From Bacteroidota bacterium (GTDB lineage: Bacteria > Bacteroidota > Ignavibacteria > UBA10030 > UBA8401), in the NCBI GenBank assembly GCA_027622375.1, contig JAQCAB010000015.1, positions 1-36,049 of the forward strand: 36,049 nucleotides of DNA, read 5' to 3'. This document shows, piece after piece, positions 16,896-35,585 of this stretch (position 1 is the first letter of the stretch; the number at the start of each line of letters is the position of its first letter). The notes beneath the pieces are model-generated. The model was not told where the DNA came from and ran no database searches. It worked only from the letters and a program-made list of their open reading frames with translations. Both the position numbers and the translations under genes were made by a program.

Positions 16896-17927
16896 ATGGC
16901 TAGTTCGTCATACGAACAAATCTTAATCCAATTAAAAAATAAAAAGTTTTCACCTCTTTATTTTATTTTTGGTGAAGAAGAAGTATTTATTGATAAATTA
17001 GTTGAAAAATTTTTAAGTGATGTTTTAGCTCCTAGTGAAAAAGATTTTAATGCTGAAGTTCACGATGGCGATATTATTACCGGAGATGAAATATTAGTTA
17101 AAGCAAAAGCTTATCCACTGATGAGTGATTATCGTGTGTTAATTATTAAAAATTTTGATAAAACTCAAAATTTAGAAATTTTAACTGACTATTTTCAAAA
17201 TCCCGCTCAATCAACTATACTTGTATTAACATCAACAAAAGTAGATTTACGTAAAAATCCATTTGCATTATTAAATAAAATTGCTGTTTCGGTTGATTGT
17301 AAATATTTAAAAGGGGCTGAACTTGAAATGTATATCGACAAATATTTAAAAGATCGAAAAAAAAATATTTCTTCTCATGGAATTGATTTATTAATCTCGC
17401 ATGTTGGGAATTCGTTACTCGAAATAAATAATGCTCTCGATAAATTAATTCTGCTTAAACATGATGATGCAAAAATTGAGGATGCAGATATTTCTTCAAT
17501 TGTTGGAGCAACAAGAGAAATAAAAGTTTTTGAACTAACAAATTTTGTTGGCAATTGCGAATTAAATAATGCTCTTACAACTCTTGAAAAATTAATTCGC
17601 CAAGGCGAAAACCCAATCTATTTTATTGTAATGTTAACTAGGCATTTTACAATTTTATGGAATATTTGGGCTGCGAAAGAAGCAAAAATTGAAACAAGTA
17701 ATATTGCAGCTGAGTTTAAAATCCATCCATATTATTTTAAAGATTATGAAAATCAATTAAAAAAATATTCAATGACCGAAGTTGAAAATGTTTTACTTCA
17801 TTTAACCGATGCAGATAAAATGTTAAAATCAACTTCTATGGATAAAATTTTGATTGTTGAACTTTTATTAAAAAAAATAATCTCAAAATCTAAATTTGTA
17901 CCAACCGAGGAATTTTCAATTTCTTAA
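16896..17927 (+). CDS. holA: DNA polymerase III subunit delta
   Basis: HolA is the clamp-loader wrench that opens the beta sliding clamp. The 343-residue length is normal. The N-terminus SPLYFIFGEEEVFIDKLVEKF is the typical opening, followed by YPLMSDYRVLIIKNFDK and a middle AAA+-like fold without Walker motifs. The C-terminal collar region contains NPIYFIVMLTRHFTILW and an alternating helical tail with MTEVENVLLHLTDADKMLKS. Identity is usually weak in this family, but the order of motifs is convincing. It sits six bases after the cyclophilin gene and its stop codon directly abuts the next ATG. Confidence 0.92.
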   Translation: MASSSYEQILIQLKNKKFSPLYFIFGEEEVFIDKLVEKFLSDVLAPSEKDFNAEVHDGDIITGDEILVKAKAYPLMSDYRVLIIKNFDKTQNLEILTDYFQNPAQSTILVLTSTKVDLRKNPFALLNKIAVSVDCKYLKGAELEMYIDKYLKDRKKNISSHGIDLLISHVGNSLLEINNALDKLILLKHDDAKIEDADISSIVGATREIKVFELTNFVGNCELNNALTTLEKLIRQGENPIYFIVMLTRHFTILWNIWAAKEAKIETSNIAAEFKIHPYYFKDYENQLKKYSMTEVENVLLHLTDADKMLKSTSMDKILIVELLLKKIISKSKFVPTEEFSIS

Positions 17928-19409
17928 ATGAAACTTTTTGCTGAACCAACAAGTTTTGAGTGGTTTATATTTTTTGGTTTATTGTTTGGGATTCTGATTC
18001 TATTATTAGTTGCTGAAAAACTTCGCAAAGTTTATATAAACTCTCCAGAAATCACACGTAAATTAGTTCATATTGGAGTTGGTTTAATAATATTTTACTC
18101 ACCAAAAATTTTTACCTCCGGTATTCCTCCAATTTTACTTTGTGCAATTTTTATTGTAATTAATACATATGCACTTTTAAAAGGAAAATTAAAAGGAATT
18201 CATGGTACACAACGATTTACATTTGGAACAGTCTATTATCCAATTGCGGTAATTATTTTACTTTATTCTTTTTGGGATAATTCTCCTTTTATAATTTCAA
18301 CTTCTATCTTAGTGCTTGCTTTTTCAGATTCAATGGCTGCAATAGTTGGTGAGAATATTAAAAATCCAAAATATTATTTTCTATCAGGCGAAAAAAAAAG
18401 TTATCAAGGCTCAATAACTTTATTTTTAGTTACAACGATTATAGTTTTTATTTCTCTTTATAGTACCCAACTTCAATATTCAAATGAAGAAATTATTATG
18501 ATAAGTACTATTTCAGGATTAATTGCAACTTTACTCGAAGGAGTTTCTATTAAAGGTTTTGACAATTTAACATTACCGTTGGGTGTTGCATTTATACTTC
18601 ATTATTTTTTAAATAGAGTAGATTATTCAAATTTATATTTAGGTATAATTTTAGCTTCGGTAATTTCAATTTTATCTTATAAATTAAAATTGCTTTCAAA
18701 GAATGGAGCTGTTGCAACTTATTTAATGGCATTCACAATCTTTTCAGTTGGAGGATGGAAAACTACAACCCCAATATTAATATTTTTTATTTTATCAAGT
18801 ATTCTTTCTAAAATAGGAAAAAATAAAAAAGGGAGCGCAAATTCAATTTCTGAAAAATCAGAAATTAGGGATTTAGAACAAGTAATCTCAAATGGTGGAG
18901 TAGCAACTTTAGTAATAATTTATATCTATTTCACAAAAAATATCGAAACCAATTATTTATTTTATCTTTCAACTTTAGCCGCAGTTACAGCAGATACATG
19001 GGGAACAGAAATTGGTTTATTTTCAAAAAAGAAACCAAGATTAATTACAAATTTTAAAACTTCAGAAACCGGAACAAGTGGTGCAATTTCAACATTAGGA
19101 ATTATTGGTGGAATTTTTGGTGCTGCAATAATTGCGCTAACAGGAAGTTATTTTCATATAATTTCATTAAATCAATTTTATGGAATTATTCTTGCTGGTA
19201 TTTTTGGGTCTCTTGTTGATAGTTATTTTGGTGCTACAATTCAAGCTGAGTATAAATGCAATATTTGTGAAAAAATTACAGAAAGAAAATATCATTGCCA
19301 AAATCAAACAAAATTAATAAGGGGATTTGCATTTATAAATAATGATTTTATCAATATTATTTGTGCTATTTCGGGATTATTATTTTCACTTATATATTAT
19401 TCCCTTTAA
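17928..19409 (+). CDS. Fused dolichol/phytol kinase-like and DUF92 (VTE6-like) membrane protein
   Basis: This 493-residue polytopic membrane protein joins two families. The N-terminal half (about 1-220) resembles the SEC59/VTE5 polyprenol kinase group, with EITRKLVHIGVGLIIFY, FSDSMAAIVGE and KKSYQGSITLF. The C-terminal half (about 230-490) is DUF92, with KNGAVATYLMAF, TADTWGTEIGLF, ETGTSGAISTLG and a Cys-containing CNICEKITERKYHC near the end. In plants VTE5 phosphorylates phytol and VTE6 (DUF92) phosphorylates phytyl phosphate, so a fusion could make a polyprenyl diphosphate from its alcohol in two steps. The actual alcohol is unknown. It starts immediately after the holA stop, and kdsA follows after 36 bases. 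Confidence 0.75.
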   Translation: MKLFAEPTSFEWFIFFGLLFGILILLLVAEKLRKVYINSPEITRKLVHIGVGLIIFYSPKIFTSGIPPILLCAIFIVINTYALLKGKLKGIHGTQRFTFGTVYYPIAVIILLYSFWDNSPFIISTSILVLAFSDSMAAIVGENIKNPKYYFLSGEKKSYQGSITLFLVTTIIVFISLYSTQLQYSNEEIIMISTISGLIATLLEGVSIKGFDNLTLPLGVAFILHYFLNRVDYSNLYLGIILASVISILSYKLKLLSKNGAVATYLMAFTIFSVGGWKTTTPILIFFILSSILSKIGKNKKGSANSISEKSEIRDLEQVISNGGVATLVIIYIYFTKNIETNYLFYLSTLAAVTADTWGTEIGLFSKKKPRLITNFKTSETGTSGAISTLGIIGGIFGAAIIALTGSYFHIISLNQFYGIILAGIFGSLVDSYFGATIQAEYKCNICEKITERKYHCQNQTKLIRGFAFINNDFINIICAISGLLFSLIYYSL

Positions 19410-27647: not shown

Positions 27648-29288
27648 TTATTTATTTGAAATGTTATTGCTGCTTAATAAAACATTTCTAGGGTCAATTT
27701 CTATTTTTTCTGGAATACCTTTTACTTTAAATGATTGGTTAATTTGTTTTTTATTAAGATTTAATTTTAATAGTATTGGTGTATTACTTCCTTTTGTGTA
27801 GTAGCCTATTTCGATAGGTAAATCAAAAATGATATCAGCTATTTGTGTTTGCGTTAATTCAATATTGATTTTATTATTTACAGAATCAAAACTCCATTTT
27901 GCATCAATTATTGGGTTAACAGGTTGGTATAACCATTGTTTGAAAAATATCTTTAAATCCTTCCCTGATGCTTTTTCCATTTCAAATCTAAAATCATCAG
28001 TGGTGGCGTTAGCGTTGTAAAATATTTTATAATAAGATTGAATTCCTTTTTTAAAATTTTTTTCGCCAATTAAATCTCTAAGCATATGTAAAACCCATGC
28101 TCCTTTTTGATAAGTGATGCCCGTAGTGACTTCTTCTTTTTCAGCAGATCTATTAGCTATTATACTAAAATTTGGATTTTTTGACATCATATTAAAAACG
28201 GATTTTTTTGCCTTTACAATACCGTTTTTATATTCATCTTGGCCATATTCATTTTCAATAAATAATAAAGTGAAAAAAGTTGCAAATCCTTCACTTAACC
28301 ACACATCATCCCAGGTTGTTTCTGTGACTGCATTACCAAACCATTGATGTGCAATTTCATGAATAACTACATTTCTAGTGCGTTCATCTCTTTTTCCATT
28401 CACTAAATTTTCCCCATAAAAAATGGCTGAGGATGTTTCCATTCCACCACCAACACTCGCCGATTGAATATTGGCTAATTTTTCATAAGCAAAAGGCCCA
28501 ACATAACTACTATAAAATTCCAACACTTTTTTTGTGGGTTCTTTAAAATCATAAAATCCAGCTTCTCTGTTTTTTGAATACACCCAGGTTTGAATTGATT
28601 TGCATTCAAATTCATCTACAAATTGCACAGCAAAGTCAGCTACGCCTAATACAAATAACCAACTTGATACAGGAATAGATTGTTTCCAATGGGTTAACTT
28701 GGTGTTATTACCTAAATCAGATTCCTCCAATAACAAACCATTCGAGACTACTTTATAATGAGATGGCGCTTTTACAATAAATTCTGATGTCGCTTTGTCG
28801 TAAGGATGATCGATTGTAGGCAACCAATGCCTTGCTCTATTAGGCCAATTTTCATTGAAAAAACTACGATCACCAAATTTGGTAGTATCAATTCTTAAGC
28901 CATCAAAAGGTATTCCATGATATTGAATTGAGAATTCTAATTCTGTTTCTGAATTGCTAACTTGTGGCAAATTAATAATTATCGCATCGTTTTGATGTGT
29001 AAATGATATTGATTGATTTCCTAATTTAATAGCATCAATCACCATCCCTTTTCCTTTTTTATCGATTGACTTATTAATAAAATCCAATCTAAAGTTTTGA
29101 ATGCCTTCCTTTTTAAATAAGATTTTAATTTTAGTATGTCCAATAATTTCATTTGAACTATCAGACAAATTTATTTCAAAAGAATAATGTTTAACGTCAA
29201 TATTTTTATTAATAGGGTATTGGTCAGCCCATAAAAACCGCGGTAATAAAATAAAAAAAGTAATTAAATATTTTTTTATGTTTTTCAT
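27648..29288 (-). CDS. Secreted M1 family metallopeptidase (downstream member of pair)
   Basis: This 546-residue protein has a signal peptide (about 1-21, ending LPRFLWA) and an M1 N-terminal beta-saddle followed by the thermolysin-like domain. The zinc site is HEIAH at 310-314 with Glu333 18 residues later. The substrate-binding GxMEN motif reads GGMETSS. A YQKG motif carries the transition-state Tyr. The C-terminal helical domain of full-length aminopeptidase N (about 870 residues) is missing, so this is a short bacterial M1 form, probably trimming peptides in the periplasm. It starts two bases after the stop of a homologous gene, so the two are co-translated. Its stop is only a few bases from the left direct repeat. 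Confidence 0.92.
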   Translation of the reverse strand: MKNIKKYLITFFILLPRFLWADQYPINKNIDVKHYSFEINLSDSSNEIIGHTKIKILFKKEGIQNFRLDFINKSIDKKGKGMVIDAIKLGNQSISFTHQNDAIIINLPQVSNSETELEFSIQYHGIPFDGLRIDTTKFGDRSFFNENWPNRARHWLPTIDHPYDKATSEFIVKAPSHYKVVSNGLLLEESDLGNNTKLTHWKQSIPVSSWLFVLGVADFAVQFVDEFECKSIQTWVYSKNREAGFYDFKEPTKKVLEFYSSYVGPFAYEKLANIQSASVGGGMETSSAIFYGENLVNGKRDERTRNVVIHEIAHQWFGNAVTETTWDDVWLSEGFATFFTLLFIENEYGQDEYKNGIVKAKKSVFNMMSKNPNFSIIANRSAEKEEVTTGITYQKGAWVLHMLRDLIGEKNFKKGIQSYYKIFYNANATTDDFRFEMEKASGKDLKIFFKQWLYQPVNPIIDAKWSFDSVNNKINIELTQTQIADIIFDLPIEIGYYTKGSNTPILLKLNLNKKQINQSFKVKGIPEKIEIDPRNVLLSSNNISNK

Positions 29289-29290
29289 TT

Positions 29291-30934
29291 TTATAAAGTT
29301 ACTTTTTTCAAGTAAAAGCCTTTTGCGTCTATTTGAGGGGGTGTAGCGCTATTAACAATTATACCTTCAGTTGGAATTATTGTTCTGGTAGTTATTCCAT
29401 TAGTAGTAATATCAAAAGGTAAAGCCATAAAGAAATTATTAATTTTAATTTGGTATTTCTGATATCCAATTTCCTTAATGTTGATATCCAGAAGATTCGT
29501 GCTTCTTAAATAAAAATCAAAAAATGGTTTTAAATTTTGTTCAGATGCATTACTAAATAGTTGTTCAACATCCATAGTTGTAACAAAGTTGTCATAAGTA
29601 TATTTTGGATCTGTTGAGAGTTTTCTTAAAGTGGGGAAAAATATTTCATCTCCTAGTACATATCTTAAACTATGCATAAAAAAGGAGCCTTTGCCATAAA
29701 TGTCTCCTCCAGAATATACTTCTTCCTCTCTAACTTCTTCACCAAGAACCATTGCTTTTCTATTTTTTACACCTCTTCGATGTCCAGCAATTATTTCATC
29801 ATAAGCAGCTTCACCACCTATTTCTAACATTGCCAATGCTTCAGCATAAGTAGCAATGCCTTCCTGTATCCACATATGCGCCCAATCTTTATTTGTTACT
29901 TTGTTTGCCCACCATTCGTGCGCAAATTCATGAAATAAATTTGCTGAATATTCCTGACCACCAATTGTTTTGTATAAAAATTTGTTATCAAAAGTAATCA
30001 TTGTTTGATGTTCCATTCCTGAATTTGGTACTTCTGCAATTCCAATCTTTTCTTTTATCCAAGGATATTCACCAAAATATTTTTCTAAAATTTTACTATC
30101 TCTTTTCCTTGTTTCAATTACTTTTTTTGCATGCATCGTATCAACTTCTAATACATAATATTCAATTGGCACTTTGTTTCCCAAAATAGTTTTGTATTCA
30201 TCTTTTACAACTTTGTATTTGCCTATGTTAAATAATATACAGTAATTGCTAATAGTATAATTTGTTTTCCAATGGTAAGTGGATTTATTATTTTTGTTCG
30301 TCACACTCATTAACATACCAGGTCCAGCAACGACTAAATTGTAGGGGATGGTTATTTTTAAATCAGCACCTTCATTGGGTTCGTCGCTTGGATGATCTTT
30401 ACATGGGAAATACATTTTTCCCCCTTCTCCTTGAATATTTATTGATACCCAGTCATTTCCATTTTTATCTTTTTCCCAAGTAAAACCTCCATCCCAAGGG
30501 GGTCTTACTGCCACTGGGGGAATGCCATTATATTCAATAAATACTTTTTGATTACCTTTTTCAAAACCTTTACCTTTTGCAGCAGTTATGAATATTTTAT
30601 CATCATGTTGATAAAAACTAGCAGTTTTATTATTTACTTTAATTTTTGTAACTGTATATAAATGAATTAAATCAAGTAAAATTGTATCTGATTTTTTATA
30701 TAAGTTTAAACTTATTTCAGTTGAACCATTTATTGAATGATTTACCATATCCACCTCTAAGGAAATTGTATAATGCCGTATATCCATATTTGCTTGGAGG
30801 GGCAGAAGTTTGCCTCCAGAAGTGAGGTATGAAATGTCTCTGCTATTTATATTGTCATCATTTTGACTTTGTACTATAGTGCTTTGTAATAAAATAAGTA
30901 CGAGGGTGGTAATTTTTAAAATTTTAGAAGTCAT
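29291..30934 (-). CDS. Secreted M1 family metallopeptidase (upstream member of pair)
   Basis: The 547-residue protein has a signal peptide (about 1-24, ending IVQSQ), the M1 beta-saddle and the catalytic domain. The zinc site is HEFAH at 335-339 with Glu358 18 residues on. The exopeptidase motif reads SGMEHQT, and YGKGSFFMHSL carries the catalytic Tyr. Like its neighbour it lacks the helical C-terminal domain. The two proteins have nearly equal length but are only distantly similar, so they are old paralogues rather than a recent duplication. It begins about 100 bases after the right repeat. No clear promoter of the TAnnTTTG type was found there, so it may depend on read-through from hrcA-grpE-dnaJ. 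Confidence 0.92.
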   Translation of the reverse strand: MTSKILKITTLVLILLQSTIVQSQNDDNINSRDISYLTSGGKLLPLQANMDIRHYTISLEVDMVNHSINGSTEISLNLYKKSDTILLDLIHLYTVTKIKVNNKTASFYQHDDKIFITAAKGKGFEKGNQKVFIEYNGIPPVAVRPPWDGGFTWEKDKNGNDWVSINIQGEGGKMYFPCKDHPSDEPNEGADLKITIPYNLVVAGPGMLMSVTNKNNKSTYHWKTNYTISNYCILFNIGKYKVVKDEYKTILGNKVPIEYYVLEVDTMHAKKVIETRKRDSKILEKYFGEYPWIKEKIGIAEVPNSGMEHQTMITFDNKFLYKTIGGQEYSANLFHEFAHEWWANKVTNKDWAHMWIQEGIATYAEALAMLEIGGEAAYDEIIAGHRRGVKNRKAMVLGEEVREEEVYSGGDIYGKGSFFMHSLRYVLGDEIFFPTLRKLSTDPKYTYDNFVTTMDVEQLFSNASEQNLKPFFDFYLRSTNLLDINIKEIGYQKYQIKINNFFMALPFDITTNGITTRTIIPTEGIIVNSATPPQIDAKGFYLKKVTL

Positions 30935-33930: not shown

Positions 33931-34752
33931 ATGTTGAAAGATGATAATTTAAATAAGTTAGCCATAACTCATTACGAAAATTTTCCTGTTGGATCATTTT
34001 TAATTCCAAAAAAATATAGAGATGCATTACATTTAATTTATGCTTTTGCAAGAGTTGCAGATGATATTGCAGATGAATTAAATGATACTAAAAATAATAA
34101 AATAAAATTATTAGAAGAATGGGAAAATAACTTGAATGAAGCTATCGATAAAAATTCTGATAATCCTTTTTTTATTAAATTAGCAAATCAAATTGAGCAA
34201 TTTAAAATTCCACTAAAATATTTTTCAGATTTAATTATTGCATTTAAAATGGATTGCAATCACAGCCAACCAAAAAATATGGATGAGCTACTATTCTATT
34301 GCACAAAATCAGCAAATCCAATTGGGAGAATTTATTTAACTTTAATCGGTAAAAATACGGATGAAAATTTTATATTAAGTGATAATTTATGTACAGCGTT
34401 ACAGGTAACTAATTTTGTTCAGGATATTTCAATTGATAGCAAAAGAAATCGTTTTTATATTCCTTTTTCAATAGAAAATGGAATTCTATATAATTCCAAA
34501 AATAATTATTATGATAAAAAAAATATCATTTCATCGTTTATAAAAATAATTAAAGATATGTTCATAAATAGCAAACCATTAATAAATAAATTAAGCTATC
34601 CATTTAATTTAGAGCTATCATTAATTTGGAATGGCGGAATGAGAATTATTAATAAAATTGAAAAAGATAATTTTGCCATTCTTACACAAAGGCCAAAATT
34701 ATTTATGAATGATAAAATTTATATATTTCTCAAATCAATTATTAATAAGTAA
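33931..34752 (+). CDS. hpnC: Squalene synthesis protein HpnC (hydroxysqualene synthase)
   Basis: In the HpnCDE route HpnD joins two farnesyl diphosphates to presqualene diphosphate, HpnC turns it to hydroxysqualene and HpnE reduces that to squalene. The 273-residue trans-isoprenyl synthase fold has HYENFPVGSFLIPKKYRDALHLIYAFARVADDIADE, with the first Asp-rich motif DDIAD, and NFVQDISIDSKRNRFYIP as the second. HYENFPVGS is a hallmark of HpnC as against HpnD. It is divergent from hrcA and separated from it by 104 bases; its promoter was not recognised. The stop overlaps the hpnD start by one base. Confidence 0.92.
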   Translation: MLKDDNLNKLAITHYENFPVGSFLIPKKYRDALHLIYAFARVADDIADELNDTKNNKIKLLEEWENNLNEAIDKNSDNPFFIKLANQIEQFKIPLKYFSDLIIAFKMDCNHSQPKNMDELLFYCTKSANPIGRIYLTLIGKNTDENFILSDNLCTALQVTNFVQDISIDSKRNRFYIPFSIENGILYNSKNNYYDKKNIISSFIKIIKDMFINSKPLINKLSYPFNLELSLIWNGGMRIINKIEKDNFAILTQRPKLFMNDKIYIFLKSIINK

Positions 34753-35585
34753 TGAGAACTTTAGCATTAACAGAATTTTTTATTTATCCAAAAAGTAATT
34801 TTACAATTTCTTTTATTTTCCTCCCAAAGAATAAAAGAGAAGCAATGAATCTTATTTACAATTGGTGTCGGGTTTCTGATAATATTGTTGATGCCGAATT
34901 GCCACTTGATGAAAAAAAGAAATTTTTAGTTTCGTGGATTAAAGAGTTTGAAAAAGGATTAAAAAAAGAATCGAGTTATCAAATATTAAATAATTTATCA
35001 ACTATAATTGAAAAATTTAATATACCAACTGAGCATTTTAAGGATTTATTAAGAGGTATGGAATTCGATTTAATAAAAAATTCGTACAACAATTTTCAAG
35101 AATTGGATGAATATTGTTATTGTGTTGCAAGCACAGTTGGTTTAATCAGTGCCAAAATATTTGGGTACAAAAATAAATCGATGGAAGATTATGCTATAAC
35201 ACTTGGTAAAGCTTTACAATTAACAAATATTTTAAGGGATGTAAAGCAAGATGCAAAAAAGGGAAGAATCTATTTACCAATTGAAGATCTGAAAAAATTT
35301 AATGTAGATAAAAAACAAATATTTGAAAATAATATGAATGATGATTTACGCAATCTCTTAAAATATAATTGGGAGCGAGCATATAATTATTTTATTGAAG
35401 CAGATAAATATTTATCAATAGATGACAAAAAAGGGTTTTTAGCAGCCCAAATTATGAAAGAAATTTATTTTACGATTCTTTTAAAAATAAGAGATTCAAA
35501 TTATGAAGTATTTACAAAAACATTAAAACTTTCTGCAAGTAAAAAAATATCAATTGCGCTTAATTGTAGGTGGAAAAACAGATAA
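34752..35585 (+). CDS. hpnD: Presqualene diphosphate synthase HpnD
   Basis: The 277-residue protein is a squalene/phytoene synthase homologue with the first metal motif CRVSDNIVD (Asn in place of the second Asp of the usual DDxVD) and the second [18 protein letters not shown]. The lead-in [22 protein letters not shown] and the middle [29 protein letters not shown] are typical of HpnD. It is coupled to hpnC by a one-base overlap and overlaps hpnE by 16 bases. Confidence 0.9.

Follow-up and report, generated by a model that had tools for sequence, protein, structure and literature searches.

A SEC59/VTE5-like half and a DUF92 half, the latter of the family of plant VTE6, are joined in one reading frame in a Bacteroidota bacterium, and the same fusion recurs across several bacterial groups with the presumed catalytic residues of both halves conserved. 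Among relatives the two halves also part: the N half is absent or decayed in some genomes that retain DUF92, and elsewhere in the genome a stand-alone protein related to this half is encoded. The gene lies in a stretch of 36,049 nucleotides (contig JAQCAB010000015.1), the whole of which is referred to here as the window; features are collected in Table 1. We favour the explanation that the gene product is a bifunctional membrane enzyme uniting a CTP-dependent kinase for prenols with one for prenyl phosphates, and that it probably returns C15 or C20 alcohols to their diphosphates. The fusion as such is already known, from Methanosarcina barkeri, is common among the relatives of the source bacterium and is mostly ordinary. 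Among the matches listed in the open-licence PMC literature, we found neither a SEC59-like and DUF92 fusion in bacteria, nor its bacterial spread, nor the absence or decay of its kinase half.

Table 1. Coordinates of the fused gene, its domains and motifs, and related genes (window positions unless a locus is named).
Feature	Position	Strand	Basis or remark
Fused SEC59/VTE5-like and DUF92 membrane protein	17928..19409	+	493 aa; ATG at 17928, stop ends 19409
holA, directly upstream of the fusion	16896..17927	+	Pfam
N half, residues 1-236, CTP-dependent lipid-kinase-like	17928..18635	+	PF01148, AF2 model
R44-K45..H48 motif	18057..18071	+	R44, H48 in 80/80 rows; K45 in 59/80, otherwise R or Q
D134...G141 motif	18327..18350	+	both residues in 80/80 rows
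K157...G161 motif	18396..18410	+	both residues in 80/80 rows
E204...D212-N213 motif	18537..18566	+	80/80 rows, partly by construction
C half, DUF92 domain (COG1836, family of plant VTE6)	18651..19376	+	PF01940
D356-T-W358..E361 and D431-S432, invariant in the DUF92 half	18993..19223	+	80/80 rows
CxxC-x8-HC stretch close to the C-terminus of the DUF92 half	19257..19298	+	C444, C447, C457 together in 73/80 rows
Stand-alone SEC59-like protein	L183:2296-2946 (source genome); L184:1074-1721 (sister)		flanked by ftsH-like and dut-like genes (by eye)

The first-pass annotation had read part of the protein as a VTE6-like DUF92 kinase, and the Pfam model bears out the domain, in the C half: PF01940 matched residues 242-483 at E 1.5e-61, covering profile positions 2-250 of 251, with 208.4 bits against a curated cut-off of 27.5. 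TIGR00297 scored 130.2 bits on the same half, under its curated cut-off of 205.85. To our knowledge, VTE6 is the only characterised member of the DUF92 family. The family is given as COG1836 = pfam01940 (PMC5898192), and VTE6 is described as resembling COG1836 (PMC9782597).

The N half was also expected to resemble a kinase family, and it does so narrowly. Scanned alone, residues 1-236 matched PF01148 (CTP_transf_1) at 2.2e-5 with 24.9 bits, barely over the cut-off of 24. No PF01148 match to this half was returned by a whole-protein Pfam scan at E<=1, and only one of 21 whole homologues gave such a match (E 0.064). When homologous N halves were scanned alone at E<=0.5, PF01148 was matched in 18 of 52; the runner-up was the SPW repeat (8/52), the matches to which are surely due to chance. 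NCBIfam at E<=0.5 gave no family for the N half of the window protein. The order of motifs in this half, R-K..H / D-x6-G / K-x3-G / E..DN, is one that we take to be typical of CTP-dependent lipid kinases of the SEC59/VTE5 type. We propose that D134 corresponds to Asp177 of yeast Dgk1, the spacing from D134 to G141 being that of D177 and G184 in the yeast enzyme. In yeast Dgk1, D177 is described as a conserved catalytic residue (PMC6371920); the proposed equivalence of residues draws on the motif pattern and on that published statement. The C-terminal domain of dolichol kinase is said to have homologues in archaea and bacteria (PMC11542857).

Conservation was assessed in an alignment of 80 rows, comprising 79 fused loci from named genomes and the window protein; one locus (L099) was excluded for an internal stop, and 75 of the 79 remaining loci were less than 90% alike. 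R44, H48, D134, G141, K157, G161, E204, D212 and N213 in the N half, and D356, T357, W358, E361, D431 and S432 in the C half, were found in every row. The loci had been collected with two peptide patterns, one covering E204-N213 and the other the stretch around D356, and the conservation of these two stretches is therefore partly by construction; the residues outside both of them are free of this bias. When ten fused rows of greater distance were aligned, a single one (L149, genome G060) had no match to R44, K45 and H48. The CxxC-x8-HC stretch is zinc-site-like and a possible metal site; alignment A1 lacks it in 8 of its 21 rows, and it was also missing in three rows from families f22, f20 and f35. 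An internal duplication was considered and dropped, since comparing the profile of the N half with that of the C half gave nothing usable (hhalign probability 9.7, with E 0.0033 for a single comparison).

Confident structure models were obtained for the full-length protein (pLDDT 87.2, pTM 0.85) and, with AF2, for the N half alone (pLDDT 93.3, pTM 0.90). The top solved match of the N-half model was CdsA, aligned over 166 residues at 4.6 A (Z 8.6), with a Na-PPase practically level with it (Z 8.0); in Foldseek, CdsA was matched with probability 0.72-0.80 and E 0.16-0.31. For the full model, the first row was DPAGT1 on the N half (Z 6.9) and the second was CdsA, matched over 127 residues of the C half (Z 6.3, 3.5 A). 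Such Z scores are weak for helical proteins, and these matches do no more than agree with the family assignment. The search for solved relatives by sequence returned chance-level rows only: the N half had one and the C half two, all at E 0.4 or above. Among annotated-plasmid names, the N half had one weak match ('hypothetical protein') and its stand-alone relative had none.

We further analysed the distribution of the fusion in genomes. Among 60 relatives, the source genome counted, it was present at full length in 21 and cut by a contig end in two (G009 and G018); DUF92 stood without the N half in 11 (in two pieces in G052), an N-half-like match alone was found in nine, and neither in 17. The fused forms in this sample were confined to families f1, to which the source genome belongs, and f6. 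A scan of named genomes, whose loci lie partly on the same contigs as the 60-relative sample, gave 443 confirmed stretches; the best 80 of these came from Bacteroidetes, Ignavibacteria, Calditrichota, KSB1, Marinimicrobia, two Deltaproteobacteria and unclassified bacteria, and 79 of the 80 read through without a stop. The fusion also occurred in many families of a phylum sample of 247 genomes, and both halves were matched in 79 of 119 Marinimicrobia genomes, one of which (G367) carried an internal stop. The fusion is thus not an assembly artefact, given its full length in 21 of 60 genomes and the 79 of 80 loci that read through. At 1.73 Mb (100% complete) and 1.7 Mb, the source genome and its sister are roughly half as large as the 20 remaining family members sampled (2.9-4.5 Mb).

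Within this distribution the DUF92 half is found with and without its partner. Synteny with the sister species (G001) extends over the locus from the LPG_synthase_TM-like to the lptB-like gene, and there DUF92 stands alone between holA and kdsA; in G010, G011 and G030, DUF92 follows holA directly. The stretches fetched from these four genomes held no N-half match at E<=1, and the sole match in the whole sister genome was the stand-alone relative. In two genomes of family f7 (G108, locus L141, and G118, locus L142), the frame is of fused length and the DUF92 residues D356-W358, E361 and D431-S432 are retained; the N-terminal membrane part is without R44, H48, D134, K157, D212 and N213, and in both it is possibly the remnant of a dead kinase. 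An unrooted tree was made of 129 C halves, 112 labelled fused and 17 labelled alone (the two with a decayed N part counted among the 17). It required 11 changes of label, at least seven of them forced by well-supported branches; as the tree is unrooted, reading these changes as losses rather than repeated fusions is presumptive. These sequences are best read as a constant DUF92 joined to a kinase half that can be dispensed with. Since DUF92 is often found alone, coupling of the two steps is not obligatory.

Of the 60 relatives, 56 have a stand-alone protein related to the N half, among them all 11 genomes with DUF92 alone, although the match in G052 was weak and partial (2.3e-5). Most of these matches leave the first two fifths of the N-half model uncovered, and against Pfam the stand-alone relative gave no family at E<=1e-4. 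Its motif residues were inspected in the source genome and its sister, where the equivalents of R44, H48, D134, G141, K157 and G161 are kept.

The surroundings of the gene had been described as holA, Kdo genes and more distant squalene genes, and these names hold up: Pfam confirmed holA and two squalene/phytoene-synthase family genes at 33931-35585, and kdsA, the next gene in the window, and kdsD were assigned from their translations. The first base of the 493-aa frame directly follows the holA stop. As an argument about function, this neighbourhood proved weak, for kdsA lies within five frames in only 6 of the 79 loci and holA in 22 of 79. Squalene/phytoene-synthase (SQS_PSY) genes occur in 59 of the 60 relatives, with or without the fusion, so that their presence is uninformative about it, and a link to squalene was dropped. 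Across the 79 loci no isoprenoid partner common to the phyla was found. The window also carries two M1-family peptidase genes side by side (27651-30934).

The protein had been proposed to hold both steps of the plant phytol salvage route. The two-kinase fusion is supported by sequence, conservation and archaeal precedent; phytol is an unlikely substrate, given that the source genome has no chlorophyll synthase over cut-off. The window had shown no photosynthesis genes, and for the single marker tested, bacteriochlorophyll synthase, this absence extends to the whole source genome (59.5 bits against a cut-off of 212.3). Among 31 selected genomes tested for the same marker, ten were over the cut-off and all ten were fused: seven from family f22, which we take to be the green sulfur bacteria, one from f35 and two from f20. 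Under the cut-off were 18 fused genomes, the source genome included, and three without the fusion. That the fusion occurs in ten genomes with bacteriochlorophyll synthase and 18 without it suits a general prenol substrate.

VTE5 and VTE6 are both described as preferring CTP (PMC9782597), so that the simplest role of the fusion would be to convert an alcohol to its monophosphate and then to its diphosphate, a chemistry that can soundly be inferred for the fused protein. The N half, of the SEC59/VTE5/DGK1 type, would transfer phosphate from CTP to a prenol, and the DUF92 half, of the VTE6 type, would add the second phosphate to the prenyl monophosphate. The product would be the diphosphate of a prenol, with farnesyl or geranylgeranyl diphosphate the likeliest candidates, and could enter menaquinone, squalene, polyprenol or ether-lipid synthesis. 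Several such uses are conceivable in the source genome, where the UbiA proteins include MenA and heme O synthase, both over curated cut-offs, and a third protein under all cut-offs, for which a generic prenyltransferase model scores best, followed by one for GGGP geranylgeranyltransferase; a GGGP synthase family protein and the SQS_PSY pair are also present. Where the kinase half is missing or decayed, the first step may be served by the stand-alone SEC59-like kinase, by another source of prenyl monophosphate or by DUF92 itself. DUF92 would not be the sole route to these products, since Sulfolobus acidocaldarius, used as a control genome, had no DUF92 match and both geranylgeraniol and geranylgeranyl-phosphate kinases have reportedly been obtained from it. 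For the COG1836/DUF92 family, a kinase step in isoprenoid synthesis has been proposed (PMC5898192), and a role in phytol-phosphate metabolism has been predicted (PMC3223725). Counting against the two-step scheme is a suggestion that phytol itself can be phosphorylated by VTE6 (PMC5694494); if so, the N half would be redundant.

Three other explanations were weighed. It is unlikely that the kinase half phosphorylates undecaprenol or another long polyprenol, recycling carriers of cell-wall synthesis, with DUF92 acting on a related carrier. SEC59 itself acts on dolichol, and an uppP-like gene (named by eye) lies three to four frames upstream of the fusion in 13 of the 79 loci, as does a relative of the LPG_synthase_TM gene of the window, four to five frames upstream, in seven; in archaea, uppS is reported to adjoin DUF92 genes (Makarova et al., PMC5898192). 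However, the diphosphate of a finished carrier would reverse the work of UppP, and the uppP-like neighbours are non-adjacent and missing in 66 of the 79 loci.

It is rather improbable that the fusion chiefly converts geranylgeraniol to GGPP for archaeal-type ether lipids, made with a GGGP synthase of the PcrB family and a geranylgeranyltransferase, although bacteria of the FCB group have been proposed to make such lipids (PMC7852524). The GGGP synthase family (PF01884) was matched in 34 of the 60 relatives (as short matches only in G024, G028 and G046), including 10 of 10 in f6 and 21 of 22 in f1, where the matches of G008, G009, G017 and G020 are in pieces or partial. Genomes of these two families that lack the N half nevertheless retain PcrB, and the agreement there shows clade and not linkage. 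In the phylum sample outside f22, PF01884 was present at E<1e-15 in 35 of 41 fused genomes, or 33 of 39 without the two genomes with a decayed N part; G257, with a match over 5-310 in a 462-aa frame and no PF01884 at E<1e-15, was excluded from the 41. The six of the 39 without PF01884 belong to f25 (two), f38 (two), f40 and f45. Family f22 is fused, yet no PF01884 match over cut-off was found there among the matches listed. Within family f7, PF01884 was found in 6 of 6 fused genomes compared with 3 of 9 others with DUF92 (p 0.028, kinship uncorrected; G108 and G118 not counted as fused; motif residues checked in four, and G169 and G122 taken by model match). When 39 fused genomes were chosen by hand among the 80 loci for titles outside Bacteroidetes and Ignavibacteria, 29 had it as well. 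In all 119 Marinimicrobia genomes, the count was 68 of 81 fused compared with 24 of 38 others (p 0.018, two fragmentary fusions entered as fused). This value depends on 11 genomes of <=1.0 Mb; when these were left out, comparing 68 of 81 fused with 24 of 27 others showed no association (p 0.76). A link between the fusion and GGGP synthase, suggestive in the phylum sample and in f7, thus failed in Marinimicrobia and is not claimed. In the source genome, the GGGP synthase family protein is encoded at L185:2156-2893 and the UbiA protein with GGGP geranylgeranyltransferase among its best models, below the cut-off, at L151:1429-2256; archaeal-type ether lipids in this bacterium, with its 1.7-Mb genome, are possible on this gene content.

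We give similarly little credence to the reading of the DUF92 half as a CTP-using transferase of the CdsA superfamily that makes, for instance, a CDP-activated lipid: HHpred is reported to link DUF92 to the cytidylyltransferase family with two Asp conserved (PMC5898192) and CdsA ranks high among structural matches to the C half, but that match is weak and VTE6 is described as making phytyl diphosphate (PMC9782597).

Under the preferred reading, a fused prenol and prenyl-phosphate kinase, the wide conservation of the fusion is strong genetic evidence for two families acting in sequence. Genes for these kinases are described as known from very few organisms, and E. coli is said to have neither activity by nature (PMC9782597); the fusion offers one protein in which both steps can be assayed, and genomes in which the kinase half is missing or decayed are natural tests of DUF92 working alone. 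A long shot is that the fusion is an old FCB module converting geranylgeraniol to GGPP and tying lipid recycling to archaeal-type ether lipids, in which the kinase half was repeatedly shed or died and DUF92 would repair prenyl monophosphates rather than complete phytol salvage.

Compared with known systems, one likeness is to CdsA, the CDP-diacylglycerol synthase (4Q2E/4Q2G), which heads the structural matches of the N half and is a leading one for the C half, at weak Z (8.6 and 6.3). PF01148, the family of the N half, is Pfam's cytidylyltransferase family; CdsA transfers a cytidylyl group, unlike the phosphorylation proposed for the window protein. Yeast Dgk1 and SEC59/DOLK, CTP-dependent lipid kinases, would have the N-half motif in common with it and act on diacylglycerol and dolichol; we know of no fusion of either to DUF92. 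In plants and cyanobacteria, the phytyl-phosphate kinase VTE6 belongs to the same family as the C half (COG1836/PF01940) and the phytol kinase VTE5 would be the counterpart of the N half, which is of the VTE5/dolichol-kinase type by pattern. In plants these are separate proteins tied to chlorophyll and tocopherol, whereas the source genome has no chlorophyll synthase over cut-off. The fusion itself is matched by the Mbar_A3310-type fusion of M. barkeri (Makarova et al., 2015, PMC5898192), described as having, like the window protein, a SEC59-like N-terminal and a DUF92 (arCOG02245) C-terminal domain, with two Asp reported conserved in each. That fusion is archaeal and the window protein bacterial, and the two are likened through the published description rather than by comparison of sequences; in both, the two domains stand in one frame, the kinase-like domain first and DUF92 second.
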